DNA of 41,267 bases from a virus, in the IMG/VR virus record IMGVR_UViG_3300020176_000032, positions 1 through 41,267 of that record. One strand, given 5' to 3'. Under the pieces are notes generated by a model. It ran no database searches. It saw nothing but the letters and a program-made list of their open reading frames with translations, and had not been told where the DNA came from. This document shows, in pieces, positions 11,535-40,939 of this stretch (position 1 is its first letter; each line of letters begins with the position of its first letter). The position numbers and the translations under genes are program-made.

Positions 11535-11997
11535 AGCTGAAACCCGCTCCCTGCAACATGCCTTCAACGAGTCCGGTTTCGCCTATCAGATCCTGGGGGG
11601 GCCGCTGGACGAGGACGGTATCTATGGCCCTGCTACGGACCGTGTACACCGCGCCTGGCTCGATCGGGACACGGCCATACCTACCGTCACCCCGCCCCCT
11701 GCTAAGCCGTGGTGGGCCTCTCGTGCGGTCATGGGGCTATTGGCTACGGTTATCGCCGCCGCTGCTGGGCGCATGGGCTGGGAAATCGCCGATGATCAGA
11801 TTACAAGCCTGCTCCTCCAGGTCGTTGAGGTGGGCGGATTGGCCGTCGCCGCCTGGGGAACCATCCAGCGCAAGGGGGGTATTGATTGTACCCTGGTCGC
11901 TCGTCTGCCTGGCGGTCGTGATGTCCGGCTGCCAGTGCGGCCCCACCGCCAAAGCAACCCCGACGGAGACCCACGGGGCGCCTTTCGGGATCTCTGA
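11527..11997 (+). CDS. Peptidoglycan-binding-like protein with a membrane segment
   Basis: The 156-residue protein starts with GTG at 11527. Residues 5-45 (RSLQHAFNESGFAYQILGGP, then LDEDGIYGPATDRVHRAWL) match the repeat-like pattern of peptidoglycan-binding domains, where G-x-YGP-x-T is typical. A Pro linker leads to KPWWASRAVMGLLATVIAAA and a second hydrophobic stretch (QVVEVGGLAVAAWG). This PG-binding plus transmembrane arrangement occurs in phage holin-like lysis proteins. The final 38 codons overlap a lipoprotein frame and are unlike the rest. Confidence 0.65.
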   Translation: MTRAETRSLQHAFNESGFAYQILGGPLDEDGIYGPATDRVHRAWLDRDTAIPTVTPPPAKPWWASRAVMGLLATVIAAAAGRMGWEIADDQITSLLLQVVEVGGLAVAAWGTIQRKGGIDCTLVARLPGGRDVRLPVRPHRQSNPDGDPRGAFRDL

Positions 11998-24800: not shown

Positions 24801-27800
24801 ACTACCCCCGCCACCGACGATTTCACCCTCACCCCCGAGACCGAGGAACAGGTACGCGCCCGCGAGGAGGCCCAGCGCCAACGGGAACAGGCGGAAGAGG
24901 AAGCCAGGCAAGCCGAGGAAGCCCGTGCCCGGGCAGATCGACAACGCGATATCTTTGCGTTGTCTGGCTCGAACCTGCCCGCGGATCAGGCGGTAGCGGC
25001 GGGGCAGATGAATTTGTTGGGGGGGATGACCACGGCCAAGGCCACGGAGCCAAAGCCCGCGGCAACCACGGCCACTAAGCCAGACAAGACCGAGGCTAAA
25101 GGCACTGAGTCAACCACCGATCAACAACCATCCGCTTCCGATGATGGGCGGGCGACCATACTGGAGCCTGGTGCGCTATACTCAGGTTACGAGGTGACCG
25201 AAGATGAGCGAAGAAACTCCATCGTATCGGATAGGCGCAAACGTAGTGTTAGCGTTCCTTCAGCCCAGTTGGCATTCGCGCTCGACAACGCGCCCAGCGT
25301 TCAGGTTAACCTGGCCCAGCAGCGCGACAACTTCTTTGTCCGCTACGAGCACGTCGCCACCGGAGAGCTGCTCAGCGGAACCGATACCATCACCAGCTTT
25401 GAAGACGCCGCCCACGTCCTAGCACCCATCCGCAAGCACGCCCAGGAGGCTTTTTACGTCGCCGTCACCGACGCCAAAGGCAAGATCCTGGATGTGCAGT
25501 TGCACACCAAAGGAACCCGAGACGGTTCCAGCGTATTTCCCGAAGTACTGATTCCCGCCGTCGTGTCCGTCCCGGGCGCGGCAAAGGTGTGGTTTGCGCA
25601 CAACCATCCATCCGGTATTACCACCCCTTCTAACGCAGACCAGACCATTACCAGCAAGCTCACGGGCATGTTTAATGATGCTGGGCTGGAAGTGGCTGGC
25701 CATGTCGTGCTGGGGCAAGGACAACAGGCACACGCCTTGCAGCCGGATGGACGCTTTACCAATAACGTTTACCCCATCCAGATCAAGCCGATGGCGCGTA
25801 AGCAGCGTATCGCCATCACTGAGCGCAAGATACGGCAGCGTCCTATAAATCAGCGCCCGGCAATCAATGGTCCAGATATGGCCATTGACCTTATCAGCGG
25901 CTTAAGCGGTAAGCATGTGGTGGTTCTGCTGAACAACCGCCATCAGCCCGTCGGTACTATCGACATGACCGAAGGGGAAATGCAGCGGCTGAAGAGCAAT
26001 CAGCAGGTGAAACGCCTGTTGACCGGCATCGACCGCACCAATGCCTCCGCCGTTTTGCTCAAGTCCACTAACTTGGATGCGGCCAATAACGTGGCGCGGA
26101 TGATTACCCAGGTTACTGGCGTACGAGTACTGGATGCGATCATCAATGAGCAGATCCCTGGCACATTGTCACATTTCGACTCCAAGTTTTGGAGCGCACA
26201 AACGGCGAACCTGGTTGCTAGTGGTGGACCGTGGTTTAGCAAGGCGGCCAGATCGAGCCCTGCCACCTTCAAAAAAGGCGACCGGGTACGTATCGGTTCT
26301 ACTTACACCGGAGGCGCCGGCAAGGTTGCTGGAAAAGAGGGTGTAGTTGCCAGCAAATGGAGCAGCACCCATTATCTCGTTACCGTGGAAGGACTTGGTA
26401 CCTTCGGTGTTGATGCGTCAGAAATGGAGCCGCTTGGTCCACGGCAACGCTTTACCCGCATCTCAGTAAGTGAAAATCAGCAACGTGTTCAGGAATATGT
26501 AAACGCCAATGAGTTGGCGCTTGACCGAGCGGGCTGGCGTTATGCGCAACCGGGCGAAACTTTCCAAAGAGTAGTCTGGGATGCCGTCGGGGATGGCACA
26601 CTAGAACCCAACCTGCTAAGTGCAGTCGGGCTGGAGCCTGGTGAGAATGTCGCGGCGTTACATGTCACCAGCGAGCCGGAAAACTGGGCCACGCAACTGG
26701 AAGAGGATTATGACCGGTTTGGGCGCTATCGCATCATCACCATTGAAGCGATGGAGGGCGATATCGTCGTTGAGGATGTGCAGCAGGTTATTCCATCCGA
26801 AACCTTCGGCCGCAAACTAGACAGCGGCATCCTGGTAACCGGACGGCCTTTGCTGAAGCGCAGGTCGGATAAGGTCTATTTCTCACAAGGCGAACAGGGC
26901 GCTATCGGCCTCACCCCAGCCACCGCCCGCACCCGCCTGAACAACCTCCTCGGCGCCAAGACCGCCAAGGCCCTGCTCGACAGCGGCATCTTGCGTTTAG
27001 TCAACCGCGGGGCCGATTACCAGGGGGCTACCTTCGCTGATGGCCAGATGGTCCTTAACCTCGATGCGCTGGATGAAGGCACCTTCGATGGCGTGACAGG
27101 CCATGAGGGCTTCCACAGCACGATACGGGATCTCCTGGGTACTGAGACCTATGGGCAGGTGATGGAGCGCCTGAGTGGCTTGCTGAAGGCCGACACGGCC
27201 TGGGTGAAGCAGGCCAAGGCCCGAGTCCCGGACGACACGGCGGCCCGTAACGTGACCGAGGAAGTGGGAGCTTATGCCATTGAGGATTATCTGAATGGCG
27301 ACCAGCAGCCGGCCCTGTTGCGGCGCTGGGCGGAAGGCTTTTTGTCGGCCTTGCGCACGGCGATCATTCGGCATCTGCCCAACGGGCGGCTGAAGAACTG
27401 GGCGCTGGCGAATTTGCAGGCGCGGGATCTGGCGAGGTTGGCGATTGCGGGGTTAAGGGCGAAGGCTAGGGCGCAGAGGCAGGGGGCGGGGATGTCGCCG
27501 GGGTTGGCGGGGGCGCAGTTTAGCCAGGCAGGAGCGGGGCAACCGACAAGGAATCCTGGTGAGTTGCCCCGAGCGGCACGGCAGGTAAGCGGCCTGACCG
27601 TGCTGGATGATGTTCCTAACCAGGATTCCATCGGGGCTAGCCTGGAGTCTTACGACATCCTGCCCGGCATCCGTGAAGTGCCGTTGTCCGCGTTCCCCGG
27701 TGCAGCGGCGGACCAGATGTTCTATGCCGCTGATGATTTTCAGCGGGTGGACCGCTTGGCGAAGGAGATCAAGGCGTCAGGTGAAATCAAACCGCTGATC

Positions 27801-30800
27801 GTCGTCTATGACAACGAAGGTCCCTATGTCCTTGAGGGCGGCCATCGACTGGCGGCCCTGCACAAATTGGGGGTGGAATCCATCCCGGCAATGGTGGTGA
27901 TGGATACGTCGGAAGAGAGCGGGGTTCAACCGGCCAACATGCCCGCCACCATCGACGTTGACGGCCAGCAGCGCCCGACCCGTAATAGCGAGGGGCGGCT
28001 GATTCATCCGACGGCGGAGGGGGTCCGTGCGTTTTGGAGGTTGTTTGGTGACTCTGAAATCACTGACAACAAAGGCCGCCCGATTCTAATAACAAATGTT
28101 GCGAGCCTTAAACGCGGCGATGATAGCTCCTCCGGTAACTCCGACAATAGCGCCGATAGCATTAAAGCTCCATCCAGATTGTCTCAGATTTATAGCTTGT
28201 TCCAGGTCCCATTGAAGAACGGAAGTTCTTACGGACGGGTCGATTCCGACGGACAGCAATCTGCGTCTAACGGTCGTTCTTCCGCAGCCAACAAATTTGG
28301 ATATTTCGTTGGTGCTAAGCCCATCGTTCCACAACCGAGCAATATCGTCGGTGGAAATGTCGTTTCTGGTCTTGTGAATCCTAATGTGATCGGGGTTGGA
28401 GACAGCAACAAGGTTTTCAATTCTGTTGTCAGTCCTATCCCCATTTTTGTGATGGATGTGAATGGATTTATCGAGCAAGATTCCGGTCGCTTTCTCGAAA
28501 ACAACCCTATGGTCGAGGACTTGCTTTCCGTCGACGGAAATAACCTTGTATCCGTTTCTGGTGCTTCCAGTCTTTCTTCCTATGTTGTGACAGTCGGTAG
28601 AACAGAAGAATCTAGAATTTCTGGCGAGTTTGCTTGGCCAAACGAAAAAACTGATTCCACAAACAGCGCAATCGACCTTGGTTTTCATGGCGTTTCCTCT
28701 AGTGGCACACCATTCACGGTAGTTGATTTTCAGACAGTTGTCAACCCCACCAACCCCGACATCCGCTTTAGCCTCTCCCCCAACCAGGCCCAGACGCCCC
28801 CGGCACCCCCGGCCGAGACGCGCTTCCGTCAAGCCCAGCGGGTGGTGCAGGACAAGTTCAACCGCTTCCGCGTGGTGCAGGACTGGCTGAAGGAGCAGGG
28901 GATAACGCTCAGTGAATCCGCCGATGTCTACCGTGCCGAGGAACGCTTCCATGCGCGGGTCGCCAATCAGATCGAGGATTTCCGCGAGCAGACCCTCAAG
29001 CCGCTGATCGCCAAGAGCCAGCAGGCGGGCTTCAAGATGGCGGACATCGCCCAGTTCCTTCATGCTCAACATGCCGAGGAACGCAACGAGGCGATTGCCA
29101 AGATCAATGATCGCTTCCCTGACGGCGGATCGGGCATGGCCACCCAGGAGGCGCGGGACATCCTGGCGGCGGCGTCGCCTGAACTGAAACGGATCGCCAA
29201 TGCCTGGCGCAAAATTGCGGACGAGAGCCTGGACATGAAGGTGCAAGCGGGCCTCATCACCCCCGAGATGGCCGACGCCTTCCGCAACAAGTATCAGCAT
29301 TATGTGCCACTGAAGGGCGGGCCAGAGGATCAAGCCATCTTCGGCACCGGCAAGGGCCTCAAGGTGCGCCACAAGGAACAACGCGCCCTAGGCCATCCGG
29401 TGCGCGAGGGCGGGGAGTGGATCATCGAGCAGATGCTGAATGACCGCGAACGCACCATCATGAAGGCAGAGAAGGCGGTGATCGCCCGTCACGTCCTGCA
29501 AATGGCCCTGGAGATGCAGCGCCCGGACATCATCTCGGTCTCGAAACCCAAGCGTCGGCAGGTGCTCAAGAAAAACACCGCCTACGTCGTCACCTTCCAC
29601 GGCACCCCGGTCGAGTCGTTCACGTCGCTGGAGGCGGCGCACATTCACCTGCGGGAGGCGGTCTCAAAGACCGGGCGCAGTAACTCCGACTTCGACATCA
29701 TCCGCAGCAGTGACCCCCAGGTGGTACTGATGGCCAGTCCGATGCTGGCGGAAAACGAGATCATGGTTTATGAGGCGGGGCATGAGATCCGCCTGCAACT
29801 GAACGATGACCTGCTGGCCCGGGCCTATGCCAACCTGGGGCAGGAGGCGCTTGGCCCGATTCTGCGGGCCGGGCGGGTGCTCAACACCTATCTGAGCAAG
29901 GCGTATACCAGCTACAACCCGGAGTTCCTGCTGGTCAATCTGATGCGCGATTTCACCACGGGCATTGCCAATCTTAGCGGCGAGCAGGGAATGAAGGTGG
30001 CATTGCGGGCGGTCAAGCGGTATCCGCGGGCTTTCATGGACTTGCTGCGTCATGCCCGTGACCCGGCTAAGGATACCCAAAGCATCCGCGACTACCGGGC
30101 CGATGGCGGCAATACCGGGGCGGCGTACCTAGACGACCTGGAGCGAGTCGGGACGGACGTGGCGGCGGAATATGCCAAGATGCAGGGGGTGATGAGCAAC
30201 GTCCGCGAGGGCAACTACCGTAGCGCCATCACTGCGGCGATTGGCGAGGTGCTCAAGCCGTTCATCTCGTGGATCGAGAAGCTCAATCAGGCGGGCGAGA
30301 ACGCGATGCGGCTGTCCATCTATCAAGCGATGCGCGATAGTGGTCTGGGGCGGGTGGCAGCGGCCTCGGCGGCGAAGAACACCACGGTCAACTTCAACCG
30401 CAAAGGCGAGCTTGGGCTGGCGATGAATGCCTGGTGGCTGTTCTTCAATGCCTCGGTACAGGGCACGGCGGCCATTGCCCATGCCCACTTCAAGGGGGCG
30501 CATAAGGGCCAAGCCTGGGCATTTTCCGGTAGCCTGGTGGGCACCCTGTACTTGGCGTCCTTGCTGGCGGCCGGGGACGAGGACGAGGACGATGAGTATG
30601 AGAAGATCAGTGAGTATGATCGTTCCCGCAATCTGATCATTCGCACCGGGAGCGGGTTCGTTAAGTTGCCTATCCCTTATGGCTATGGCTTCTTCGCCAA
30701 CCTTGGGCGCGGCCTGGCGGATGCCCAGCGTACTGGTGAAATCGGGAAGTTGCCCTGGCACCTGGCCACTTCCTTCATCGAGGAGTTCACCCCCTTTGGG

Positions 30801-31526
30801 GCCATGGTCGCGGGCAAGAATCCCGACTTACAGCAGGCGGTGACTTTCCTGGGACCAACCGCCTGGCAGATCGCGGCGGCACCGGCCTACAACCGCACGA
30901 GCTTTGGTACGCCGCTCTACCCGGAACAGCCGTTCAAGACAGCCGAGTTTGACCGGGATCAGATGTGGCGGGGAACAAAGGGCACCTGGGCCGATGAACT
31001 GGCGGGGGCCTTGGAGCAGGCGGGGCTGGATGTCAGCCCGGAAACCCTAAAACACCTATGGCGCACGGGAACTGGCGGCGCCGGGGCATTTGTCTCCGGC
31101 GTGGCTGATGTCGTCCAGTTAAAAGCCCGCGGCGCAGACGACCTGGATGTACGCGAGGTGCCATTGCTACGCAAGTTTGCGACGGTTCCCGATGTGCAGG
31201 AGGCTAGGTCCCGCTATTACGAGGCGGTGGAGGAGGCAAAGGCGGCCAAGGAGACCTTCAGCCGCTTTAAGAAACTGGGGCGCTTCGAGGAGATGGCGAC
31301 CTATCAGCGGGAGAACCGGGCCTTGATCAGCATGGCGGCGGTGGCTGATGCGACCAGTAAGCGCATCAAGCGGGCGCGGGATTTTTACGATGCCGTGAAA
31401 CTCAACCCGAAACTGCCACTGGCAGCCAAGCGCCGGCAACTGCGCAGCATGGCACTCAATGAAATGCGCATCTATGACGGTTTCGTCAGGATGTTCCAGC
31501 GGCGGACGCGGATGGCTGCGCAATGA
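21801..31526 (+). CDS. Giant virion polyvalent protein (ParB, RadC/JAMM, HExxH, LPD38-like)
   Basis: The single frame has 3241 codons (ATG 21801; ATG 21810 is an alternative). An N-terminal helical region (1-350) is followed by low-complexity Pro/Gln linkers. A ParB-like domain lies at 670-770 with ISGGHRLDLARRSG. A RadC-type JAMM domain lies at 1150-1320 with WFAHNHPSGITTPSNADQ. Then come an SH3-like stretch near 1490-1545, a zincin-like domain with HEGFH near 1768, and a second ParB-like domain (about 1960-2033, EGGHRLAALHKLG). WRLFGDSEITDNKGRPI (about 2080) opens an ART-like domain whose core is replaced by an antisense HNH gene. NPTNPDIRFSLSP follows near 2315. The C-terminal 900 residues resemble LPD38, with FNRKGELGLAMNAWWLFFNA (2864-2890). 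Such proteins are thought to be ejected into the host and counter its defences. Confidence 0.88.
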   Translation: MQPMARSWQEIVELPEFQQLKPEEQESLRNEYFRYYVAPSIETPDLDAARATFDAETAPRTERTWGEALADTGLQLAEGGLNIVGAPVSLLAPESDVAAGLEGAGDWLRQQQSLVLRNKMREADARVQAAGEEGFLPQLWTGLKEYGTDPALAMRFIATTAPSFVPVLGAAKLAQAGTLTRGLAQGLAKEEAVRRAAMAGLTAAGATNAVLNAGGARQEAYADIRQTLIDQGIDPLVAEQIAMEDSRLPAAVGGIAGAISGSMGLEPAFAGRALGQGGWRAGGAALGAELAGEQVEELTPQATTNLMAGQYDQREITQNLGQTAAQTLIGSAPGGVVAGYMAKRGDGTEAGPGETPPGAPPETETPPSPTPGTPPTVPPVTPPTPSGTLERAAGAGAVAAGAGLGTTPAPSPEEVAQVQAQAMQEQQQAEQQQQKVAQEALKEQERQTLAAEKLRQEQLKTRKAEIALLTTMGLPGPDAGLSTRTTEPGAFDWRQQLNPPTPTSEVSTNGQEAMPGQAPNAQPPTAVTTPTEPGVPAPGATPRSGKSVDQLLEEAKASIAARQQFITNNANRPFSAPTKDGTATIMVTPSAKQPGRWQVTRFDEQNPSNDSQASSYADAVQVANQYQADWNQVTLEDDVSPATGQVTGQDTGQPASEPVEPPPPQNRVQGMREEDIPLDQLTLSPEVPQFKLGANKEGVVEPLGGTFDPVGVAPIQVWERMDGRLEVISGGHRLDLARRSGMPTIRAQVHREADGFDVGKAMVLDATLNIRDGQGKVIDYVDYFKNQKLSRDDAKTQGLVAINPGKRAFELANSASAETIAALRAGADAGGISDTDAEAIVTTAPNDDAIQALGLDQIINRGVSAKQAIATMQAAQAIRAERQATASQGDMFGFDDTAIKEAVAMGKIAASKKQQIQTDLSAITGAAKRPEVAARYGVDVKDNNALANAIQAMRARKIAWDTWQTNPELVDEVRQELRGQAPSAPAAPAVQKPVQVPTATTTPATDDFTLTPETEEQVRAREEAQRQREQAEEEARQAEEARARADRQRDIFALSGSNLPADQAVAAGQMNLLGGMTTAKATEPKPAATTATKPDKTEAKGTESTTDQQPSASDDGRATILEPGALYSGYEVTEDERRNSIVSDRRKRSVSVPSAQLAFALDNAPSVQVNLAQQRDNFFVRYEHVATGELLSGTDTITSFEDAAHVLAPIRKHAQEAFYVAVTDAKGKILDVQLHTKGTRDGSSVFPEVLIPAVVSVPGAAKVWFAHNHPSGITTPSNADQTITSKLTGMFNDAGLEVAGHVVLGQGQQAHALQPDGRFTNNVYPIQIKPMARKQRIAITERKIRQRPINQRPAINGPDMAIDLISGLSGKHVVVLLNNRHQPVGTIDMTEGEMQRLKSNQQVKRLLTGIDRTNASAVLLKSTNLDAANNVARMITQVTGVRVLDAIINEQIPGTLSHFDSKFWSAQTANLVASGGPWFSKAARSSPATFKKGDRVRIGSTYTGGAGKVAGKEGVVASKWSSTHYLVTVEGLGTFGVDASEMEPLGPRQRFTRISVSENQQRVQEYVNANELALDRAGWRYAQPGETFQRVVWDAVGDGTLEPNLLSAVGLEPGENVAALHVTSEPENWATQLEEDYDRFGRYRIITIEAMEGDIVVEDVQQVIPSETFGRKLDSGILVTGRPLLKRRSDKVYFSQGEQGAIGLTPATARTRLNNLLGAKTAKALLDSGILRLVNRGADYQGATFADGQMVLNLDALDEGTFDGVTGHEGFHSTIRDLLGTETYGQVMERLSGLLKADTAWVKQAKARVPDDTAARNVTEEVGAYAIEDYLNGDQQPALLRRWAEGFLSALRTAIIRHLPNGRLKNWALANLQARDLARLAIAGLRAKARAQRQGAGMSPGLAGAQFSQAGAGQPTRNPGELPRAARQVSGLTVLDDVPNQDSIGASLESYDILPGIREVPLSAFPGAAADQMFYAADDFQRVDRLAKEIKASGEIKPLIVVYDNEGPYVLEGGHRLAALHKLGVESIPAMVVMDTSEESGVQPANMPATIDVDGQQRPTRNSEGRLIHPTAEGVRAFWRLFGDSEITDNKGRPILITNVASLKRGDDSSSGNSDNSADSIKAPSRLSQIYSLFQVPLKNGSSYGRVDSDGQQSASNGRSSAANKFGYFVGAKPIVPQPSNIVGGNVVSGLVNPNVIGVGDSNKVFNSVVSPIPIFVMDVNGFIEQDSGRFLENNPMVEDLLSVDGNNLVSVSGASSLSSYVVTVGRTEESRISGEFAWPNEKTDSTNSAIDLGFHGVSSSGTPFTVVDFQTVVNPTNPDIRFSLSPNQAQTPPAPPAETRFRQAQRVVQDKFNRFRVVQDWLKEQGITLSESADVYRAEERFHARVANQIEDFREQTLKPLIAKSQQAGFKMADIAQFLHAQHAEERNEAIAKINDRFPDGGSGMATQEARDILAAASPELKRIANAWRKIADESLDMKVQAGLITPEMADAFRNKYQHYVPLKGGPEDQAIFGTGKGLKVRHKEQRALGHPVREGGEWIIEQMLNDRERTIMKAEKAVIARHVLQMALEMQRPDIISVSKPKRRQVLKKNTAYVVTFHGTPVESFTSLEAAHIHLREAVSKTGRSNSDFDIIRSSDPQVVLMASPMLAENEIMVYEAGHEIRLQLNDDLLARAYANLGQEALGPILRAGRVLNTYLSKAYTSYNPEFLLVNLMRDFTTGIANLSGEQGMKVALRAVKRYPRAFMDLLRHARDPAKDTQSIRDYRADGGNTGAAYLDDLERVGTDVAAEYAKMQGVMSNVREGNYRSAITAAIGEVLKPFISWIEKLNQAGENAMRLSIYQAMRDSGLGRVAAASAAKNTTVNFNRKGELGLAMNAWWLFFNASVQGTAAIAHAHFKGAHKGQAWAFSGSLVGTLYLASLLAAGDEDEDDEYEKISEYDRSRNLIIRTGSGFVKLPIPYGYGFFANLGRGLADAQRTGEIGKLPWHLATSFIEEFTPFGAMVAGKNPDLQQAVTFLGPTAWQIAAAPAYNRTSFGTPLYPEQPFKTAEFDRDQMWRGTKGTWADELAGALEQAGLDVSPETLKHLWRTGTGGAGAFVSGVADVVQLKARGADDLDVREVPLLRKFATVPDVQEARSRYYEAVEEAKAAKETFSRFKKLGRFEEMATYQRENRALISMAAVADATSKRIKRARDFYDAVKLNPKLPLAAKRRQLRSMALNEMRIYDGFVRMFQRRTRMAAQ
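28086..28688 (-). CDS. HNH homing endonuclease nested antisense in the giant gene
   Basis: A 200-residue protein whose ATG at 28688 lies 6 bases behind AGAGGA. The N-terminal zinc ribbon has Cys7/Cys10 and Cys29/Cys33. The HNH core shows LDHRVVFEK (His60), HIHHKNGDRTDNRIENL (His79/His80, Asn88, Asn92), a phage HNH pattern. The C-terminus carries two helix-turn-helix-like segments (about 113-145 and 160-195) that would read the target DNA. The gene is more AT-rich than its surroundings, a sign of transfer. It lies in exact codon register with the + strand frame and has no TTA, CTA or TCA codon, so that frame stays open. Confidence 0.88.
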   Translation of the reverse strand: MKTKVDCAVCGISFFVWPSKLARNSRFFCSTDCHNIGRKTGSTRNGYKVISVDGKQVLDHRVVFEKATGILLDKSIHIHHKNGDRTDNRIENLVAVSNPDHIRIHKTRNDISTDDIARLWNDGLSTNEISKFVGCGRTTVRRRLLSVGIDPSVRTSVLQWDLEQAINLRQSGWSFNAIGAIVGVTGGAIIAAFKARNICY

Positions 31527-32010: not shown

Positions 32011-32087
32011 GTCCCGTTCGTCTAGTGGCCTAGGACTCCAGCCTTTCACGCTGGCAACAGGGGTTCGATATCCCCTACGGGACGCCA
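32011..32087 (+). tRNA. tRNA-Glu (anticodon TTC), candidate attP
   Basis: A full cloverleaf is present. The acceptor stem is GTCCCGT with ACGGGAC, followed by discriminator G and an encoded CCA. The anticodon stem CCAGC/GCTGG holds loop CTTTCAC, anticodon TTC. The T stem is AGGGG/CCCCT. The T loop reads TTCGATAT, 8 bases instead of the usual 7. The gene resembles gammaproteobacterial tRNA-Glu in most positions. It lies 12 bases from the integrase stop codon, where tyrosine recombinases usually have their attP site, so it is probably the attachment core. The extra loop base may affect tRNA function. Confidence 0.9.
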
Positions 32088-32098
32088 CTTTCGCCTCA

Positions 32099-33115
32099 TC
32101 ACAACCGCAACCCAACAATCGCATCCCGCAAGGACGAAGGTGCCAGGTGGGCATATTTCTCGGTGATGCGGATGCTGGAATGCCCAGCCAGGACCTGCAC
32201 GGTGCGTAGTGGGATGCCGGCCTGGACAAGCTGACTACAGAATGTGTGACGAAGAGCATGCACCGATCCAGTCAGTTCCGCCCGGCCCAGGGTGCGGCTA
32301 AAGGCCCGGGTCAGTGAGTAAGGGGTTACCTGGGGGAGGACAAACTCCCGCGGACGGCGGAGGGATTCGATGGCCTCGGCGGCCCCCTGGGTGATGGGAA
32401 CGACGCGCCACTTCCCGGACTTGGTACGAGCACCGGGTTCGGAGACGATGCGCAGTTCATCCTGGCCGATGTCGGCCCACTTGAGCTTGATGGCTTCGCC
32501 GCGGCGCATACCGGAGTTGACCATCAACTGCCAAGACCAGCGGTACTGGCGATGTAGTTCCGCGTCTTCCGTGGTGGCCTCTTTCGGGATCGTCAGTTCC
32601 GTGGCGTAGATCAGGCCAAGCTCCTCTTTGGTGTACCACCGGGGCGGTCGGCTGGCCAGGTCCCGGGGTGCCTTGGCGTACTGAACGGGATTGTGGGTTA
32701 TCACGCCCGTTTCAACAGCGTGATTCAATAGGGCCTTGAGGGTCCGAATCTCCTTGATGACCGTCCCGGAAGCGGCGCCATCCGTGAAGCGTTGGCGTTT
32801 GTAATCATCCACCAGGTCGGTGGTTATGGTGAGCAAAGGGCGGCGCTTAAAGTAGGGAATCAGGTGCTGGCGGAGGATCTGTTCCACCCGGTAATAACTG
32901 TCGGGGTATTCCTGGCTGTGCCACTGGCCATAGGTGACGGCATAGCTCAAGAACTGCGGGCCGGCGAGGGCGGCATGGCCGCGGGCCTGTTCCTGTGCGA
33001 CCCTGGCCGCCTCGGCTTCGGCTTCGGTAACTGGGCCAAGGCGCTGGCGGATCTGCCGCCTGCCCTCGACCCAGGTGATGTACCACGTCTGACCGCGGAG
33101 ATATTTTCCTGCCAT
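32099..33115 (-). CDS. int: Tyrosine-family integrase
   Basis: A 338-residue phage integrase. The N-terminal part (about 1-65) is an arm-binding-like domain, and a core-binding SAM-like domain follows (70-170). The catalytic domain shows the first Arg in SGMRRGEAIKLKW near residue 203, a basic hairpin (KSGKWRVVPI), the box HALRHTFCSQL near 284, then AGHSSIRITEKYAHL with nucleophile Tyr321. All family residues are present, so it should be active. It is transcribed toward the tRNA gene, typical for tRNA-targeting integrases. Its start overlaps an excisionase-like frame by 169 bases. The catalysed reaction is site-specific insertion and excision. Confidence 0.96.
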   Translation of the reverse strand: MAGKYLRGQTWYITWVEGRRQIRQRLGPVTEAEAEAARVAQEQARGHAALAGPQFLSYAVTYGQWHSQEYPDSYYRVEQILRQHLIPYFKRRPLLTITTDLVDDYKRQRFTDGAASGTVIKEIRTLKALLNHAVETGVITHNPVQYAKAPRDLASRPPRWYTKEELGLIYATELTIPKEATTEDAELHRQYRWSWQLMVNSGMRRGEAIKLKWADIGQDELRIVSEPGARTKSGKWRVVPITQGAAEAIESLRRPREFVLPQVTPYSLTRAFSRTLGRAELTGSVHALRHTFCSQLVQAGIPLRTVQVLAGHSSIRITEKYAHLAPSSLRDAIVGLRL

Positions 33116-33460: not shown

Positions 33461-33660
33461 TCGGTTATTTCTCGATACTCAACGTGTTTACCGCAATGCC
33501 GACAAATCCGATCGGCGGATTTTTCGTCCAGACAATGCACTAATTTCAACCGCCCGCAGTCCGTGGCAAGTAGATCCGACTTCCAACGATGGGAACGGAG
33601 GCGCAGCTCCCAGACGCAGACAGGTTTGATTTCGGTTGGGGTTACGGGCCGGTCATTCAT
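33457..33660 (-). CDS. Small zinc-ribbon-like early protein
   Basis: A 67-residue protein starting at the ATG at 33660, which overlaps the previous gene by 8 bases (ATGAATGA); the longer in-frame start lies inside that gene. It ends with RICRHCGKHVEYREIT, a CxxC knuckle, with two more Cys near residues 16 and 35. A small zinc-binding protein is plausible. Function is unknown. Its stop overlaps the next start. Confidence 0.55.
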   Translation of the reverse strand: MNDRPVTPTEIKPVCVWELRLRSHRWKSDLLATDCGRLKLVHCLDEKSADRICRHCGKHVEYREITE

Positions 33661-33838
33661 GGTAACGCTCGGCTTGATGCAACAGCGGGCAATTGCTAAC
33701 CCAACACTCGAAGTCATTTTTTGTGTGGCGACAGCCATGACTATCTGGGCATTTATAATCGCAATGTTCGGTTAGGCGATTGAAGGCGTGTAATACGTAT
33801 TCGACGCGAAGGCTAAAATCCTCTGGGTGTTCTTTCAT
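33653..33838 (-). CDS. Small Cys/His-rich early protein
   Basis: A 61-residue protein behind GGAGG, overlapping the previous gene's stop by 4 bases. Residues 26-51 contain CDYKCPDSHGCRHTKNDFEC and a further Cys, with several His, a layout that could bind zinc. The N-terminus is a short charged helix. No named family is recognised. The start junction has the GGAGG...GAAATGA form shared with other junctions in this operon. Confidence 0.55.
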   Translation of the reverse strand: MKEHPEDFSLRVEYVLHAFNRLTEHCDYKCPDSHGCRHTKNDFECWVSNCPLLHQAERYHE

Positions 33839-34050
33839 TTCGTGTCCTCCATCGGGTTATCGGGCGGTTCTGGATAATCGCACCAAGCGTAAGCAGTGTC
33901 GTAGACAACAACTCCATTTGCGCTACAGAATGCGCCATTACGCTCGTGCCAGCGCGCTTCCCGAACTGTTGGATAAACATCCCCTCTAGCCACAAAAGCT
34001 ACGAGGATGAGTCTGTCTTTCGGGGCTGTCTTAATGGGCTTCCACTGCAT
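33835..34050 (-). CDS. DUF551-like phage protein
   Basis: A 71-residue protein with the family's usual opening (MQWKPIKTAPKDRLILVAFV), Trp in the middle (ARWHERNGAFC) and the characteristic ending AYAWCDYPEPPDNP. DUF551-type proteins are common in phage early regions and of unknown function. The ATG lies close behind GAGGGCGTGAAATAAC, the end of the preceding gene. Its own end forms one of the repeated junctions. Confidence 0.7.
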   Translation of the reverse strand: MQWKPIKTAPKDRLILVAFVARGDVYPTVREARWHERNGAFCSANGVVVYDTAYAWCDYPEPPDNPMEDTK

Positions 34051-35046: not shown

Positions 35047-36117
35047 TCATGCCCTCCAGTAAATCCCCCAATCATCATCACGATCGACGGACTCCTCGAA
35101 AATTAATGCACCGCCAGATTGATATTCCGTAACCCGGGTCTCGAAGAAATTTTTTTCCTTGCGGATCTCTATCTGTTCCGCCATCCAGGGGAAGGCGTGG
35201 TAAGCATCGTCGAAGGGCTGGGGCAGGCCAACCGATCCCAGGCGCATGTTGGCGAAGAACTTGGCCGTGGCGACGTGCTCCTCAACCGAGTAGCCGAGGA
35301 TGGGGCCATCCTTCAGGCAGTAGGCGATGTACTCGCGCTCCAGGTCGATAGCGCGACGGGCATCCGCCTCGATCTGGGCCACCAGCTCCTGAGTGACCGC
35401 CTCCGGGTACTGCGCCATGTACTCGCGGATCAGGGCCACGCCAAAGCCGATATGCTGGGATTCATCGCGGGCGATATAGGTGAACTGTTCCGCCCCGCCC
35501 TTGAAGCGCCCCAAGCGGGCGAGCTGCTGCACCGGGCCAAGCAGGGAAACCCAGAACCAGACACCCTCGAAGATGAGGAACCAGAAGACGAGGGAACGCA
35601 GCAGGGCTTGCTTTCTGTAAAGCGGTTGATCGTAAAACCGCACTTTGTTGCACAGGTGTTCTACGACCATTATCTCGACGAGCTTAGACACATCTTTAGC
35701 CATCTCCACCCGCGCCTTCATTGCCGGCACTTCCTTCCAGGTGTCATAGATGCTGAGCGGGATTCCCAGATTTTCGATGACGTAGCGGTAGGAGCGGGTA
35801 TGGAGTGCCTCCTCCCAGATGAGCCGCTTGAAGAAATGACGGATCTCCGCGGGCTGAAACACCGAGAGGAAGGTCTCCGCCGCGTCGTCCCCGCGCTCGA
35901 TGTCGAAGGTCGTAAGCTGGGCCATCACCGAGACAAACAAATGGCGGTGCTTGGGGTCCAGCGTGGGGTCTTTGTAATCGGCCACGTCGGGGCCGACTTG
36001 GATCTCATTCGGGCTCCAGTTGTTTTGCTCTTGAGCAAAAGCCATCGTCCACGCCCATTCATACTCAAAAGGCTCTAATTGATAGCTGTCGCACGGACCG
36101 AGTAAAGGCTTACGCAT
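35047..36117 (-). CDS. nrdB: Class I ribonucleotide reductase small (beta) subunit
   Basis: A 356-residue R2-type protein that houses a metal-tyrosyl radical cofactor used to reduce ribonucleotides to deoxyribonucleotides. Candidate ligands can be traced: Asp72 (TTFDIERGDD), Glu103 and His106 (WEEALHTRSY), Glu184 (FEGVWFWVS), Glu219 and His222 (ARDESQHIGFG). Tyr110 lies four residues after His106, as does the E. coli radical Tyr122. The start KPLLGPCDSYQLEPF fits the R2 N-terminal consensus and is echoed by three upstream mini-ORFs. The start has GGGAG 10 bases upstream. No large subunit gene lies in the window, so it would pair with a host subunit or one encoded elsewhere. Confidence 0.95.
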   Translation of the reverse strand: MRKPLLGPCDSYQLEPFEYEWAWTMAFAQEQNNWSPNEIQVGPDVADYKDPTLDPKHRHLFVSVMAQLTTFDIERGDDAAETFLSVFQPAEIRHFFKRLIWEEALHTRSYRYVIENLGIPLSIYDTWKEVPAMKARVEMAKDVSKLVEIMVVEHLCNKVRFYDQPLYRKQALLRSLVFWFLIFEGVWFWVSLLGPVQQLARLGRFKGGAEQFTYIARDESQHIGFGVALIREYMAQYPEAVTQELVAQIEADARRAIDLEREYIAYCLKDGPILGYSVEEHVATAKFFANMRLGSVGLPQPFDDAYHAFPWMAEQIEIRKEKNFFETRVTEYQSGGALIFEESVDRDDDWGIYWRA

Positions 36118-36135: not shown

Positions 36136-36318
36136 TTAAGAAAAACGATTGTCTGGTTGTGGGTCACGGAAACCGCCCCCTTTTAACCACTCTTCATAGG
36201 CCCTTTCAGATGAGTCTCGGTCTCTGTCATAGCGTTCGCACTCACCTTTATTTCCTCTCCTCCATGCGTCACTCCTATCTGCTGGGGTCCAATCTCTATA
36301 CGGATCGTTTTTTCTCAT
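36136..36318 (-). CDS. Small charged early protein
   Basis: A 60-residue protein starting at the ATG at 36318, behind AGGAGATACCTCG, which includes the stop of the mini-ORF upstream. It is rich in Asp, Arg and Glu (DAWRRGNKGECERYDRDRDS) and ends PQPDNRFS. It contains one Cys. Its stop is 18 bases before nrdB. Its start MRKNDPY resembles the nrdB start only in the first three residues. No family is recognised. Confidence 0.55.
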   Translation of the reverse strand: MRKNDPYRDWTPADRSDAWRRGNKGECERYDRDRDSSERAYEEWLKGGGFRDPQPDNRFS

Positions 36319-36329
36319 CGAGGTATCTC

Positions 36330-36386
36330 CTATGGTTCGAGTTGGTAAGAGTCGCAAGGGCCGAGGAGGGGTTTCGATCTGTTCAT
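36330..36386 (-). CDS. Mini-ORF repeating the NrdB N-terminus (copy 1, 18 aa)
   Basis: A complete frame, ATG 36386 to TAG 36330-36332. GCGGAG lies 6 bases before the ATG. It encodes MNRSKPLLGPCDSYQLEP, where residues 5-18 equal NrdB residues 3-16. Of those 14 codons, 11 differ in DNA from nrdB, all synonymously. The next gene's ribosome site overlaps its stop. It may be a functional peptide, a translational leader or a relic of another nrdB allele. Confidence 0.6.
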   Translation of the reverse strand: MNRSKPLLGPCDSYQLEP

Positions 36387-36436
36387 TCTATTCTCCGCTT
36401 GTTTTGTGTACGCGCTTCGTCATAACCGCAGCCCTT

Positions 36437-36652
36437 TTAATCCACTCGGCAAACCGGGTCTCCAAGACGGTCGACTGGATCGTAATTACTCCAGAATCGT
36501 TGATTAATCTCATTTGGCTTTAGTATGCAACGGTAGGCGAGCCTCGGCTCTTTAAGCGTGCATCGCTTGCCGCCTACCATGGTTTCAACATCTAAATCCC
36601 CATGCTCTTCTTTCATTGTCTGGAGCATTTCGATCAGTTCGCTGATTTTCAT
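36437..36652 (-). CDS. Small early protein of the MKISELIEML type
   Basis: A 71-residue protein starting at the ATG at 36652, which overlaps the mini-ORF stop (ATGA), behind TGGGAGGATCT. The N-terminus MKISELIEMLQTMKEEHGDL followed by a short beta segment (VETMVGGKRC) is a pattern seen in many small phage proteins of unknown function. The last 20 residues are polar. Translation is coupled to the mini-ORF upstream. Confidence 0.65.
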   Translation of the reverse strand: MKISELIEMLQTMKEEHGDLDVETMVGGKRCTLKEPRLAYRCILKPNEINQRFWSNYDPVDRLGDPVCRVD

Positions 36653-36723
36653 AGATCCTCCCAAGAGAACGGGTCTAGCTTGTAAGAGTCGCAAGGGCCG
36701 AGGAGTGGTTTAGGGTTGTGCAT
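36649..36723 (-). CDS. Mini-ORF repeating the NrdB N-terminus (copy 2, 24 aa)
   Basis: A complete frame, ATG 36723 to TGA 36649-36651, with GGAAGG upstream inside the end of the previous gene. It encodes MHNPKPLLGPCDSYKLDPFS followed by WEDL. Residues 5-19 match NrdB 3-17 with two conservative changes (Q to K, E to D). The tail is unique. It overlaps the following gene by 4 bases, so ribosomes finishing this frame can restart on that gene. Confidence 0.6.
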   Translation of the reverse strand: MHNPKPLLGPCDSYKLDPFSWEDL

Positions 36724-36943
36724 TTTTTTCTACCTTCCGAATGAAAGACCGGCCATGCCAGATGCCGCGTTCACCGGCTTTAAATGGTGCTGTTGTCGCA
36801 TCTGGATCATCTTCGAGTAGTTCACAGTACACCATAATGTTTTTTGCCCCGATGTATCGGGCCAATACTTCGCGCTCATGGCCTGGACCTGAACGCCTGC
36901 CTCTTGATCCTCTCGTCAGAATCACTACGTCACCGAAGCGCAT
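36710..36943 (-). CDS. Small early protein, unrecognised
   Basis: A 77-residue protein starting at the ATG at 36943, behind AAAGGAATCGCC within the mini-ORF upstream. It reads as a small beta domain with a basic loop (MRFGDVVILTRGSRGRRSGP), a hydrophobic strand (YIGAKNIMVYCELL), and GERGIWHGRSFIRKVEK. The SH3-like pattern at the N-terminus suggests nucleic acid or protein binding. It overlaps mini-ORFs at both ends. Confidence 0.55.
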   Translation of the reverse strand: MRFGDVVILTRGSRGRRSGPGHEREVLARYIGAKNIMVYCELLEDDPDATTAPFKAGERGIWHGRSFIRKVEKNAQP

Positions 36944-37019
36944 GGCGATTCCTTTTCGCAACAAAGTGTTCGATCTGGTAAGAGTCGCAAGGGCCAAGGA
37001 GGGGCTTCGGGTTGGTCAT
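36930..37019 (-). CDS. Mini-ORF repeating the NrdB N-terminus (copy 3, 29 aa)
   Basis: A complete frame, ATG 37019 to TGA 36930-36932, overlapping the upstream small membrane protein stop by 4 bases. It encodes MTNPKPLLGPCDSYQIEHFV and a basic tail (AKRNRHALR) that arises where it overlaps the next gene's ribosome site and start. Residues 5-16 match NrdB 3-14 closely. The first four residues resemble those of copy 2. Confidence 0.6.
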   Translation of the reverse strand: MTNPKPLLGPCDSYQIEHFVAKRNRHALR

Positions 37020-37108
37020 TGGGTTGCTCCTGTTGCTAGGAGGTAGAGGAATATGAGAAGGAGCACGGCGGCGAGTCCGGCTATTGCTAGGCTGGTGCGT
37101 CGGTTCAT
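37016..37108 (-). CDS. Tiny single-span membrane protein, 30 aa
   Basis: ATG 37108 follows GGAGATTGAGCG and overlaps the previous gene's TGA. The product has a basic N-terminus (MNRRTS), one transmembrane segment (LAIAGLAAVLLLIFLYLL) and a short polar end. The stop overlaps the ATG of mini-ORF copy 3. Both junctions are of the ATGA kind used across this operon, which supports translation. Function is unknown. Confidence 0.6.
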   Translation of the reverse strand: MNRRTSLAIAGLAAVLLLIFLYLLATGATQ

Positions 37109-37386
37109 CGCTCAATCTCCAGTAATTCAGCCACCACGTCCAGCAGTTTGTCGGCGGTCTTGCCAGAGTTTCCATACAAGCCGGCCAGCCCCTTTAGCTG
37201 TCTGAGCGCCTGCTTGTGTTTGTCTGGGGCAGTCATCACGCCGTTTGGCATAGGCTCTACGCCGTACTCATCTATCTGCTTCTGCATCGTCTGGAGCGCA
37301 CCCGTACACTCCCCGAGCTGCCGTTCCAAGTACATGATGCGCTGCGCATACGCAGCTGATTGTTCGGCCAAGTCTTGAAAGCTCAT
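37105..37386 (-). CDS. Small coiled-coil early protein
   Basis: A 93-residue protein starting at the ATG at 37386, behind GAGGAGAGAG. The first 45 residues form a coiled coil (QSAAYAQRIMYLERQLGECT). A loop with MPNGVMTAPDKHKQALRQLK and a C-terminal helix follow. It lies directly after ssb in the operon. No family is recognised; oligomerisation by the coiled coil is likely. Confidence 0.6.
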   Translation of the reverse strand: MSFQDLAEQSAAYAQRIMYLERQLGECTGALQTMQKQIDEYGVEPMPNGVMTAPDKHKQALRQLKGLAGLYGNSGKTADKLLDVVAELLEIER

Positions 37387-37400
37387 CTCTCTCCTCACTA

Positions 37401-37814
37401 TTAAAACGGTATGTCATCATCAAAGGATGAAGTGGACGCTGGTTTCCCATAACCTTGCCCCTTGTCTGGTGCAGGCTGATCGTCGCCAGAATCACGCTTG
37501 CCTTTGATGAACGAGAAGTCATTGACCAGGACTTCCAGGCTGTTTTTCAGTGCGCCATCTCCGGCTGTGTATTCTTGCAGGCTAGGTTCTCCCTGCACCA
37601 GGATTGGGTCCCCTTTCTTAAAATACTGGGCGATGATCTCGCCACGCTTGCCAAGGCTAGTGCAGCGCCACCAGGTTGTCGTTTCGGTTCCCTGGCCATT
37701 TTTACGGCTAGTGGCGATAGCGAATTTGGTGATGGCGGTTCCAGACTGGCTGAACTTTGTTTCTGGATCACGGCCAAGATGCCCGACGATTGTGACGGCA
37801 GCATAGTTAGGCAT
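37401..37814 (-). CDS. ssb: Single-stranded DNA-binding protein
   Basis: A 137-residue bacterial-type SSB. The OB fold spans residues 1-105 (VTIVGHLGRDPETKFSQSGT, WWRCTSLGKRGEIIAQYF, KKGDPILVQGEPSLQEY, LEVLVNDFSFI). A short flexible linker leads to the acidic tip DDDIPF, the docking peptide for partners such as recombination and repair proteins. Its ATG overlaps the RecT stop. With RecT and the YqaJ exonuclease it forms a complete phage recombination module. Confidence 0.95.
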   Translation of the reverse strand: MPNYAAVTIVGHLGRDPETKFSQSGTAITKFAIATSRKNGQGTETTTWWRCTSLGKRGEIIAQYFKKGDPILVQGEPSLQEYTAGDGALKNSLEVLVNDFSFIKGKRDSGDDQPAPDKGQGYGKPASTSSFDDDIPF

Positions 37815-38773
37815 TAACTTTCACCCTGGAAAAAGTCTGCGGCAGCCGGTGTGAGATGGGTTTCGTTGGCTTCCGCCTGGATCGCTTCGCGCTCGATCAG
37901 CGCCTCTTCCTCGGCCTCTTCGCGCATGGCCTTTTTCCGGGCCTGGTATGCTTTCCGTGCCTCAGCCTTATCCTCCTGTCTAACCAGCCGTCCGGCCATT
38001 TCTGCCGCGCCATCCAGTTCCCGGTATGTGCCCGCGTCACGAATCAGGGTGAGCACCATGGCAAGGTCAGGACCGCTCTCCTGGGGCGCTACAGGCGTCG
38101 TGGTGGCAGGGGATACCTTGGCCTTGCCACGGCTGGCCAGCGTTGCCTTAACCGTCTCAGTGCGGCTGGTAGTGGGTTCGGCTTGGATGACTTCAGCCTG
38201 GCCCATGGGCCGCTCGTTTGGCATATCCTGGGCTTCTTCCGCCACATGGACCCCGCGCAATACGTCGGGGAAGACATCGCGCAAGGCCCAAGCCCGCGCG
38301 CGCATCTGGAGCATGCGCTTTGGGTACTGCTGCCATGGACCTTGCTTGCCGTAAAGGCCGGCCCGCTTGGCATCCTCTACACTAAAAATGCGAGTAACCG
38401 GCTGTTCGCCTTTGCGCTTGACGGTGCAGGTAGCCTCGGTGTCATGGATCTCTTCGCGGATGTCTTCCAACAAGCCAGATCCGCGTACCAGCGCGATAAC
38501 AGCATCCCCCCAAAGCGCCGGGCGGCCATTGATGACAGCCAGATTTTGCATGGCCTGAAGTGGCGGCAAGCCGATTTCCGCGCCCCATTGGATAGCAACG
38601 ATGATGTTGCCCGGGTTGTTGATATAGTCCTTCGGGACCATGCTGGACTTGGAAAGCATTTCTGCCATCTTCAGGGCTTCGTCGATGGATTGTGGGGTCA
38701 GGCCGATCTGGCGCGTTCCAGTCAATGCGGGAGTGGTTTGTTGGCGGTTGATGGTTGCAATCTGAGCGGTCAT
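37814..38773 (-). CDS. recT: RecT-family single-strand annealing protein
   Basis: A 319-residue protein with the RecT core between about 25 and 190 (SSMVPKDYINNPGNIIVAIQ, WGAEIGLPPLQAMQNLAVIN, GRPALWGDAVIALVRGSGLL, YPKRMLQMRARAWALRDVFP). The C-terminal third is variable and charged. RecT anneals complementary strands, working on overhangs made by its partner exonuclease. It sits between the exonuclease (upstream) and SSB (downstream), each junction overlapping. Confidence 0.94.
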   Translation of the reverse strand: MTAQIATINRQQTTPALTGTRQIGLTPQSIDEALKMAEMLSKSSMVPKDYINNPGNIIVAIQWGAEIGLPPLQAMQNLAVINGRPALWGDAVIALVRGSGLLEDIREEIHDTEATCTVKRKGEQPVTRIFSVEDAKRAGLYGKQGPWQQYPKRMLQMRARAWALRDVFPDVLRGVHVAEEAQDMPNERPMGQAEVIQAEPTTSRTETVKATLASRGKAKVSPATTTPVAPQESGPDLAMVLTLIRDAGTYRELDGAAEMAGRLVRQEDKAEARKAYQARKKAMREEAEEEALIEREAIQAEANETHLTPAAADFFQGES

Positions 38774-39054: not shown

Positions 39055-39241
39055 GGGATTCTCCCGTGTGCGCCGGTAGTTTTTCAGCCATGGCGCTATG
39101 CCAGTGGCAGGTGTGATAGGCGTTGACGTATCGCCGGTAATCGGCGCTGTTCAAGCATCGGCATAGGCTTTCCGGCTTACCGCGGTGGCGGATCAGAACT
39201 GAATCCCAATGCTGGCAGGTATCGCAGGTTAGCTGTGTCAT
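39047..39241 (-). CDS. Small Cys/His-rich protein, zinc-ribbon candidate
   Basis: A 64-residue protein overlapping both neighbours (4 and 8 bases). It has Cys6 and Cys9 (TCDTCQHWD), then ESLCRCLNS, then HTCHWHS, a Cys/His layout able to hold zinc. It lies between the exonuclease and the helical protein upstream of recT. Similar small zinc proteins are frequent in phage recombination modules, but none is recognised here. Confidence 0.6.
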   Translation of the reverse strand: MTQLTCDTCQHWDSVLIRHRGKPESLCRCLNSADYRRYVNAYHTCHWHSAMAEKLPAHTGESHD

Positions 39242-40236
39242 GTGATTTCCAGGGATTTAGACAGGCGCAGGACGCGGGCGCCCGGGATGGACTTTGCATA
39301 GGTATCTAGTATTTTGGTCTGTTCGTTAGGGTCTAAATTGGCCAGCATGTCTAATGCTAGTTTTTTGAAGTCAATCTTCTGGCTATCCTTATTGGCCCGG
39401 AAACTGGCGATTTCCTCCCCGGCATCCGTTACCACCTCGGCATCGGCCAGGGCTGGATAGAGCGCGTCCTTGATCGCCTGTTCCATGTCTTCCAGTTCCC
39501 GGATATTGGCCTTGATCTGTGCCAACCGATGAAGCCGGTCGCGGATATCCACCGTGGCCTGAAGGATCTTGCCCGTACTGTGCCTTGGCCAGCGTAGCTT
39601 AGCCTCTGCCGCTGTCTGTGGGTCAGGCGGGGTATCCGCCTCGACATAGTGGCGCCACCAGTCATCGACCTCGGTCAGAATATAGTCCTCCAGTTCAGGA
39701 TCGCGCCGGAATGAGTAAATCCTGAATTGATTGTTGCCGAACAGGGCCGCCAGGTCCCATAACTCGCAGCCGGTCAGAGCTTGATAGGCTGCGACTTGGA
39801 GCAGGTATTGCTTCGGTACCTGATCAGTACCGGGCTCGCCCCATTCGCCATCCCGCCCCAGGGAATAGGCGTTGACTGCCTTACACTCCAGCCCGCGATT
39901 GGTCCGAATTACCCGCTTATGACTAGCAATCTTGGCCCCGTCGGGGATAACGAGCCGATCGATATGGCCGATCAGCGGAATATCAGGGTGACGCAGCAGG
40001 GCGTTATAGCGTTCTACCTGCCGTCCCGTGGTACTGGCATATTCGCGGGCGACGAACTCCTCGACATAGGTCCCATGACGCATGGCCAGGGTGCCAGTAG
40101 GCGGATCACTGCGCCCGGTCTTTTCCAGCCAGACCTCGTAAGGCGTCCGCCAGGGTGACATGCCCAGGATGGCGGCGATGTCCGAGCCGCCGATTCCGGT
40201 TTTCCGCTCGGCATGGAAGGAGGCATCACTCGGCAT
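39238..40236 (-). CDS. YqaJ-type phage exonuclease (recombinase partner of RecT)
   Basis: A 332-residue protein from the ATG at 40236 (ATG 40245 is also possible; longer starts lie in the previous gene). It has the lambda-exonuclease/YqaJ fold motifs: GIGGSDIAAILGMSPW near residues 14-30, MRHGTYVEEFVAREY, Asp93 (GHIDRLVI), Glu117-x-Lys119 (GLECKAVN) and QVAAYQAL (about 148). These form the metal-dependent PD-(D/E)xK site. It resects double-strand ends 5' to 3' to give tails for RecT. The C-terminal 110 residues are an added helical region. Confidence 0.9.
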   Translation of the reverse strand: MPSDASFHAERKTGIGGSDIAAILGMSPWRTPYEVWLEKTGRSDPPTGTLAMRHGTYVEEFVAREYASTTGRQVERYNALLRHPDIPLIGHIDRLVIPDGAKIASHKRVIRTNRGLECKAVNAYSLGRDGEWGEPGTDQVPKQYLLQVAAYQALTGCELWDLAALFGNNQFRIYSFRRDPELEDYILTEVDDWWRHYVEADTPPDPQTAAEAKLRWPRHSTGKILQATVDIRDRLHRLAQIKANIRELEDMEQAIKDALYPALADAEVVTDAGEEIASFRANKDSQKIDFKKLALDMLANLDPNEQTKILDTYAKSIPGARVLRLSKSLEIT

Positions 40237-40939
40237 AGCTTTCATCCAGCCCGAAGTAGGTAGAAACCCGGCGAAGACGCTTCCATCCAGAATCCGCACC
40301 GAGCTTTTCGTCGCTATAACCAAGTAGAGCGACAATCAAAGCCTCACGCGCTACCTGGGCCTCGTGAACCCGTTTACGTTCAGCCTCTTGTTCGATGGTT
40401 TCCTGAGCTTCGCTGGCTTTGGCGTGATTAGCGCAGGAGCCACTGCACGTTGTTTGAACGGTTGTCATGTGATTATCTTTCTGTGCGCCGGTGGGTGATG
40501 GTTCGTTTGGAATCCAGATCGCATGCGTGGGCTCTTCCATGGGTGTGTCGTCCAAGGCATCCATGATCTTTGCCAGGCGAATGTCGGCATAGGACTTTGT
40601 TCCCAGTTGCGTCTCCTTGGCCGGTACGTCGGTTGACGGCTTATCCTTACCCTTCGCGTGTCGCCAATCGTAGGGCTTAGGCGTCCAGCCCTCGCCGGCT
40701 GGGGCGATGCTCCAAGTAAATTGGGAGCCATCGTATTGCCGTGTTACCAGTCCGTCCTTATAACCATTGGAAAGCACTTTTCCAACCTGAAGCGGATTCA
40801 GATCGCATGACAATTCGTCCTGAAGACAGTTAGCGATTTCCTTGGCACTGAAATAATCGCCCGGGTTTGATTTCAGGATATCCAGGACCTTTTCCCGATT
40901 AGTCTGGAAGATATCCCAGTCGGCCCGTGTCATGGCCAT
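40226..40939 (-). CDS. Early protein with N-terminal winged-helix-like domain
   Basis: A 237-residue protein starting at the ATG at 40939, behind GGAGGG with 7-base spacing. Residues 5-75 read as a winged helix (WDIFQTNREKVLDILKSNPG, then YFSAKEIANCLQ...GLVTRQYDGSQFTWS), suggesting DNA binding. A linker (80-150) and a C-terminal coiled coil (ETIEQEAERKRVHEAQVARE) follow. It is upstream of the exonuclease and may be a replication or regulatory accessory factor. No named family is recognised. Confidence 0.6.
   Translation of the reverse strand: MAMTRADWDIFQTNREKVLDILKSNPGDYFSAKEIANCLQDELSCDLNPLQVGKVLSNGYKDGLVTRQYDGSQFTWSIAPAGEGWTPKPYDWRHAKGKDKPSTDVPAKETQLGTKSYADIRLAKIMDALDDTPMEEPTHAIWIPNEPSPTGAQKDNHMTTVQTTCSGSCANHAKASEAQETIEQEAERKRVHEAQVAREALIVALLGYSDEKLGADSGWKRLRRVSTYFGLDESYAE

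Follow-up and report, generated by a model that had tools for sequence, protein, structure and literature searches.

The window analysed here is the whole of a 41,267-base virus record (IMG/VR IMGVR_UViG_3300020176_000032, positions 1 to 41,267), and the locus under study is transcribed from its minus strand in the order ssb, a 97-aa frame, a 30-aa frame, stub c3, gene A, stub c2, gene B, stub c1, gene C and nrdB. The nrdB gene (35047..36117) is full length and encodes a protein of 356 aa that begins MRKPLLGPCDSYQLEPF and matches PF00268 (9.3e-45) and PHROG 86 (9.3e-58). Three small minus-strand genes of unknown function are interspersed with the stubs, namely gene A (36710..36943, 77 aa, no family match), whose 3′ end overlaps the start of c2, gene B (36437..36652, 71 aa, MKISELIEMLQ...), a small phage protein of phrog_6992, and gene C (36136..36318, 60 aa, MRKNDPYRDW...), which lies between c1 and nrdB. 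The 97-aa and 30-aa frames occupy 37398-37105 and 37108-37016, respectively. Immediately upstream of the nrdB region are the recombination genes of the phage, all on the minus strand: ssb (37401..37814; PHROG 44, 1.4e-34), a RecT-family single-strand annealing recombinase (37814..38773; PF03837, 7.1e-07) and a nuclease of the YqaJ / lambda-exonuclease family (39238..40335; PF09588, 1.3e-27; TIGR03033, 4.4e-24).

The phage is temperate, since the window contains an integrase gene. This tyrosine integrase gene (32099-33115, minus) is adjoined at its end by a tRNA gene (32011-32084, plus), and the pair (32011-33115) is likely to be the attachment site. An attachment site within nrdB was considered but not adopted, given that the integrase is 3 kb distant and has the tRNA gene at its end. 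Elsewhere in the window, a single frame of 3241 aa spans 21801-31526, downstream of a transglycosylase-domain protein, and short repeats (33601-33638 and 33746-33857) flank a small minus-strand gene; two diverged copies are found at 8022-9146 of the related contig L006.

The three stubs are very short minus-strand frames, each closed by its own stop codon: c1 (36330..36386, MNRSKPLLGPCDSYQLEP), c2 (36649..36723, MHNPKPLLGPCDSYKLDPFSWEDL), which precedes gene B, and c3 (36930..37019, MTNPKPLLGPCDSYQIEHFVAKRNRHALR), which precedes gene A. Their peptides begin with MNRS, MHNP and MTNP, continue with KPLLGPCDSY and end in a QLEPF-like tail, thereby matching the start of NrdB, and they are present between ssb and nrdB as the original prediction described. 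The DNA core that it ascribed to the copies is equally real; an 18-nt core, GGCCCTTGCGACTCTTAC, occurs three times against an expectation of 0.06, and the motif GGNCCNTGYGAYWSNTAY, allowing at most one mismatch, occurs four times against 0.11 expected, a count reached in none of 100 shuffles. The differences between c1 and nrdB are indeed all synonymous, but they affect 10 of 14 codons (14 nt) rather than the 11 that had been counted. Coupling of every stub to the following gene by overlap had also been proposed, and this is correct for c2, which overlaps gene B by 4 nt (ATGA), and for c3, which overlaps gene A by 14 nt, but not for c1, whose stop codon stands 11 nt upstream of the gene C start, within the Shine-Dalgarno sequence of that gene (TAGGAG). 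When the corresponding stub of L006 is included, the distance from stub stop to next start is -14, -4, +11 and +11 nt in the four complete cases. Because of this narrow spacing, the ribosome site of a stub would be expected to serve the next gene. Translation of the mini-ORFs is plausible. An RNA structure or attenuator leader was ruled out because the stubs show no excess folding (z-scores of -0.5 to 1.8) and no Rfam family was found at the stub region.

All three stubs are homologous to one end of nrdB, the 5′ end, and share its orientation. Over KPLLGPCDSY, c1, c2, c3 and the c1 equivalent of L006 differ from one another at 1-3 of 30 nt, whereas each differs from the nrdB of the window at 9-10 of 30. 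The stubs therefore do not derive directly from the present nrdB; judging from these nucleotide differences, their common source was a single kind of nrdB allele distinct from it. Similarity among the stubs ends at the start-codon region and at about codon 17, and the DNA matches of c2 (58 nt) and c3 (52 nt) to the L006 c1 cover the stub only, with different flanks; thus, the stubs did not arise by tandem duplication of a longer segment.

The source of the peptide is apparent from the family to which the NrdB of the window belongs. Every full-length NrdB found in this family begins with K-P-L-[LF]-G-P-C-D-S-Y-Q-L-E-P-F, and in an alignment of six full-length proteins, residues 3-17 are invariant except for the one L/F position. 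The carriers are three viral contigs (L004, L007 and L009) and members of gammaproteobacterial bins (L011-L018) named Competibacteraceae, Chromatiaceae, Thiosymbion or simply Gammaproteobacteria, and the NrdB of the window is 74-79% identical to most of these proteins. Since the stretch is invariant in full-length NrdB, a purely synonymous difference between stub and nrdB is what selection on NrdB itself would produce. Accordingly, the earlier argument that the peptide itself has been conserved is right about the conservation, which does not call for a separate function of the mini-peptide. A full-length nrdB with exactly the codons of the mini-ORFs, which would have pointed to the source allele, was not found among the relatives; the nearest to c1 over the 30 nt is that of L018, at a distance of 3 nt.

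When IMG/VR and a bacterial genome set with one member per species were scanned for the pattern, 15 stretches were returned, one of which, from Shewanella, was discarded as an unrelated protein. One relative is G001 (the same as L008, and nearly identical to L006), which shares 92% DNA identity with the window over the integrase block that includes the tRNA gene. Its orthologue of gene B (10322-10537 in L006) is 90.8% identical in nucleotides, with a dN of 0.056 and a dS of about 0.28-0.30. After gene B, G001/L006 retains an equivalent of c1 (MHNPKPLLGPCDSYQLESFA and a stop codon, 10209-10271 in L006), and 11 nt farther on, a different NrdB begins, which matches PF00268 (1.7e-44) yet is only 27% identical to the NrdB of the window. 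The junction is what would be expected if another gene had taken the place of the former nrdB behind codon 18 and the preceding codons had stayed; a stub followed by a heterologous nrdB supports severing by nrdB replacement. Upstream of gene B, only the tail of c2, KLDPFSWEDL and its stop, is present (about 10566-10535 in L006); the start codon and the first half of the frame, including KPLLGPCDSY, are absent, so the frame is broken. From the NrdB-like KLDPF remnant, we infer that the c2 difference represents a loss in G001 and not a gain in the window. Moreover, L006 contains at 11718-11759 a second, 42-nt copy (97.6%) of the c1 initiation region, consisting of the ribosome site and the first seven stub codons, in front of an unrelated small, cysteine-rich gene. 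In L005, the gene B homologue is followed by an 85-codon frame beginning MTPSKPLLGPCDS, that is, an N-terminal KPLLGPCDS fusion with a change of Y to C relative to KPLLGPCDSY, and behind this frame stands a deeper nrdB stub of 26 codons (MMTTKPLLGPCDSYQLEPFAYEWAWAMAR, then a stop codon). In NrdB numbering, the break points fall at about codons 5, 11, 16, 17, 17, 18 and 26; they cluster near the start, and their position is variable. Genes A and C were not detected in L006/G001.

Outside this group, the stubs were not encountered. The region has no DNA-level match in isolated phages, the KPLLGPCDSY peptide gave no match of note and no mini-ORF in phages and plasmids, and only full-length NrdB was present among the matches listed in 210 genomes of the host order, with no mini-ORF, on which ground a host origin of the stubs was rejected. 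A search with gene B recovered distant homologues, the two inspected (L029 and L030) being without stubs; a search with the gene at 37105-37398 returned only relatives already known, and a scan for the initiation region gave no copies other than those described above.

We consider it likely that the mini-ORFs are the severed 5′ ends of former nrdB alleles, left behind by repeated recombination at the 5′ end of nrdB. The relic reading offered in the original prediction agrees with the relatives, where c2 is broken, c1 stands before a non-orthologous nrdB, and a longer stub accompanies a fusion in L005. A frame broken in a relative is one of the outcomes that the prediction itself had named as pointing to relics. 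The severed unit would comprise the ribosome site, the start codon and the first 16-17 codons of an earlier nrdB allele. In exchanges with other phages, the opening codons of the resident nrdB would have become linked either to a small gene together with an incoming nrdB or to another nrdB alone, and each exchange would leave one stub and move the functional nrdB downstream. Such offset exchanges would involve partner phages with nrdB genes that are alike in their conserved opening codons and are preceded by different genes. The RecT, exonuclease and SSB of the phage may aid exchange at so short a conserved stretch; RecT was not detected in the G001, G002 and G003 contigs, which are or may be fragments. 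The stubs would persist by supplying the next gene with ribosomes through their ribosome site and early codons, and exchange among stubs may help to keep the core similar. The stubs probably continue to initiate translation of the genes that follow, and a separate function as mini-peptides is unlikely.

The codon changes within the stubs bear on this last point. Changes were counted by eye from a codon table for the four closest stubs (c1, c2, c3 and the L006 c1). Within codons 1-10, four changes were inferred, none of which alters an amino acid (P 0.004-0.006 in the absence of constraint), so that KPLLGPCDSY is identical in all four stubs, and codons 11-15, which lie near the junctions, hold all five non-synonymous changes (P 0.004). 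Furthermore, if c1 had been a neutral stub since the split of the window and G001 (gene B dS of about 0.28), its 13 residues would have remained unchanged with a P of 0.0004. Codons 1-10 therefore show more constraint than is expected of a dead relic, unless severing was recent or conversion has occurred between stubs. Recent severing, stub-stub exchange, and selection on the first codons or on the peptide would each explain this constraint, and the data do not separate them. Because the relic reading alone does not explain the conservation of codons 1-10, a functional peptide keeps some probability. Such a peptide, KPLLGPCDSY, would act as a free leader or decoy that binds NrdA, NrdB or a host factor recognising the NrdB N-terminus and thereby tunes ribonucleotide reductase during infection, the copies being selected for the peptide. 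A search of the phage contigs for nrdA found none; the phage NrdB may therefore pair with a host NrdA, which would suit this idea. However, full-length NrdB is itself invariant at these residues, and constraint before severing explains much of the pattern; the c2 stub is decapitated in L006, where c1 is kept, L005 combines its Y to C change with fusion to another gene, and the mini-ORFs were found only in one small phage group, beside nrdB or gene B. The functional decoy or R2-assembly peptide of the original prediction thus gained no positive support, and we regard this explanation as improbable. A reading in which the debris of recombination gave rise to regulatory micro-peptides as a family, with the free ten-residue KPLLGPCDSY acting on ribonucleotide reductase, is likewise considered improbable.

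A possible but unlikely alternative is that the strong ribosome site and first codons of nrdB were copied in front of small genes and selected for expression, in which case the peptide would be a by-product and the copies would not each require a severed nrdB. The 42-nt copy before an unrelated gene in L006, the in-frame fusion in L005, and the close spacing of stop and start codons in all four complete cases speak for such copying. Nevertheless, the stubs extend to QLEPF or AYEWAWAMAR, beyond the needs of an initiation region, the gene B of L006 retains its own ribosome site and frame without a leader, and the RNA structure of the stubs is ordinary. Each small gene does have a severed nrdB 5′ end on one side and another nrdB start on the other, an arrangement that would also be produced by mobile small-gene cassettes, of a homing or site-specific type, inserting at a fixed point of nrdB and restoring its 5′ end. 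We hold this to be very improbable, because no nuclease or recombinase family is represented among the small genes (A and C match nothing, and B matches only families of unknown function), the break points vary (codons 5, 11, 16-18 and 26) with no conserved cassette ends, and L006 lacks genes A and C, its junction being occupied by a complete foreign nrdB.

Severed nrdB starts may be compared with several known systems. Elements of the SXT type that integrate in prfC regenerate the 5′ end of the interrupted gene, and other insertions make a long target duplication. The window resembles them in having displaced 5′ gene fragments together with an intact copy supplied by the insert, but its inserts have no integrase or cassette boundary, and their break points vary. 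In the translationally coupled leader ORFs of phage and bacterial operons, the stop codon of a short ORF overlaps or adjoins the next start, as it does in the stubs, although here the leader can be recognised as part of a different gene, nrdB. A closer parallel is mycobacteriophage Island3, in which genes 67/68, compared with Brujita, show a small extra gene together with about 50 bp of duplicated gene end, interpreted as recombination between short homologous stretches (PMC3029335). In both cases, a small inserted gene is accompanied by a duplicated gene end; in Island3, this is a 3′ end (18 C-terminal residues) duplicated once, whereas the window has the 5′ end of nrdB several times, and one stub, in G001/L006, stands before a replaced nrdB. 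In addition, Rad52-like phage recombinases (Redbeta, Erf and RecT) recombine short and diverged sequences and contribute to mosaicism in temperate phages (PMC3945230). The temperate phage of the window, with its own RecT, exonuclease and SSB and its proposed exchanges at short or diverged homology, agrees with this picture, although the exchanges measured in that study spanned hundreds of bp, against 18-58 nt for the stretches shared here, and a role of this RecT in the scars is putative.

The stubs are real and well preserved, and are most likely scars that recombination left at the start of a gene and that probably now serve to initiate translation; they are not evidence for new regulatory peptides. 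They provide a legible record of phage mosaicism at one gene boundary, where repeated exchanges have stranded the start of the displaced gene, each junction has kept the next gene translatable, and, in a relative, nrdB itself has been swapped for an unrelated homologue. Severed gene starts can thus give rise to short leader ORFs and to N-terminal fusions. For annotation, these cases indicate that a micro-ORF may owe a purely synonymous pattern of conservation to its parent protein, and that such a pattern should be read with caution.

Several observations concern the contigs that carry full-length nrdB. The host bins G006 (L012, L014 and L016) and G009 (L011 and L017) each contain several near-alike nrdB loci on separate contigs, which are either real paralogues or the product of mixed bins. 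L016, a phage-like contig in a gammaproteobacterial bin, contains at 1300-1720 and 3040-3190 intergenic units of about 30 nt, GAGCGAGCCA..GACAGAAACA, repeated with gaps, one stretch being just upstream of nrdB. A frame resembling a DNA polymerase in L004 (305-1877) is apparently interrupted by one similar to an HNH-type homing endonuclease, as judged by eye only.
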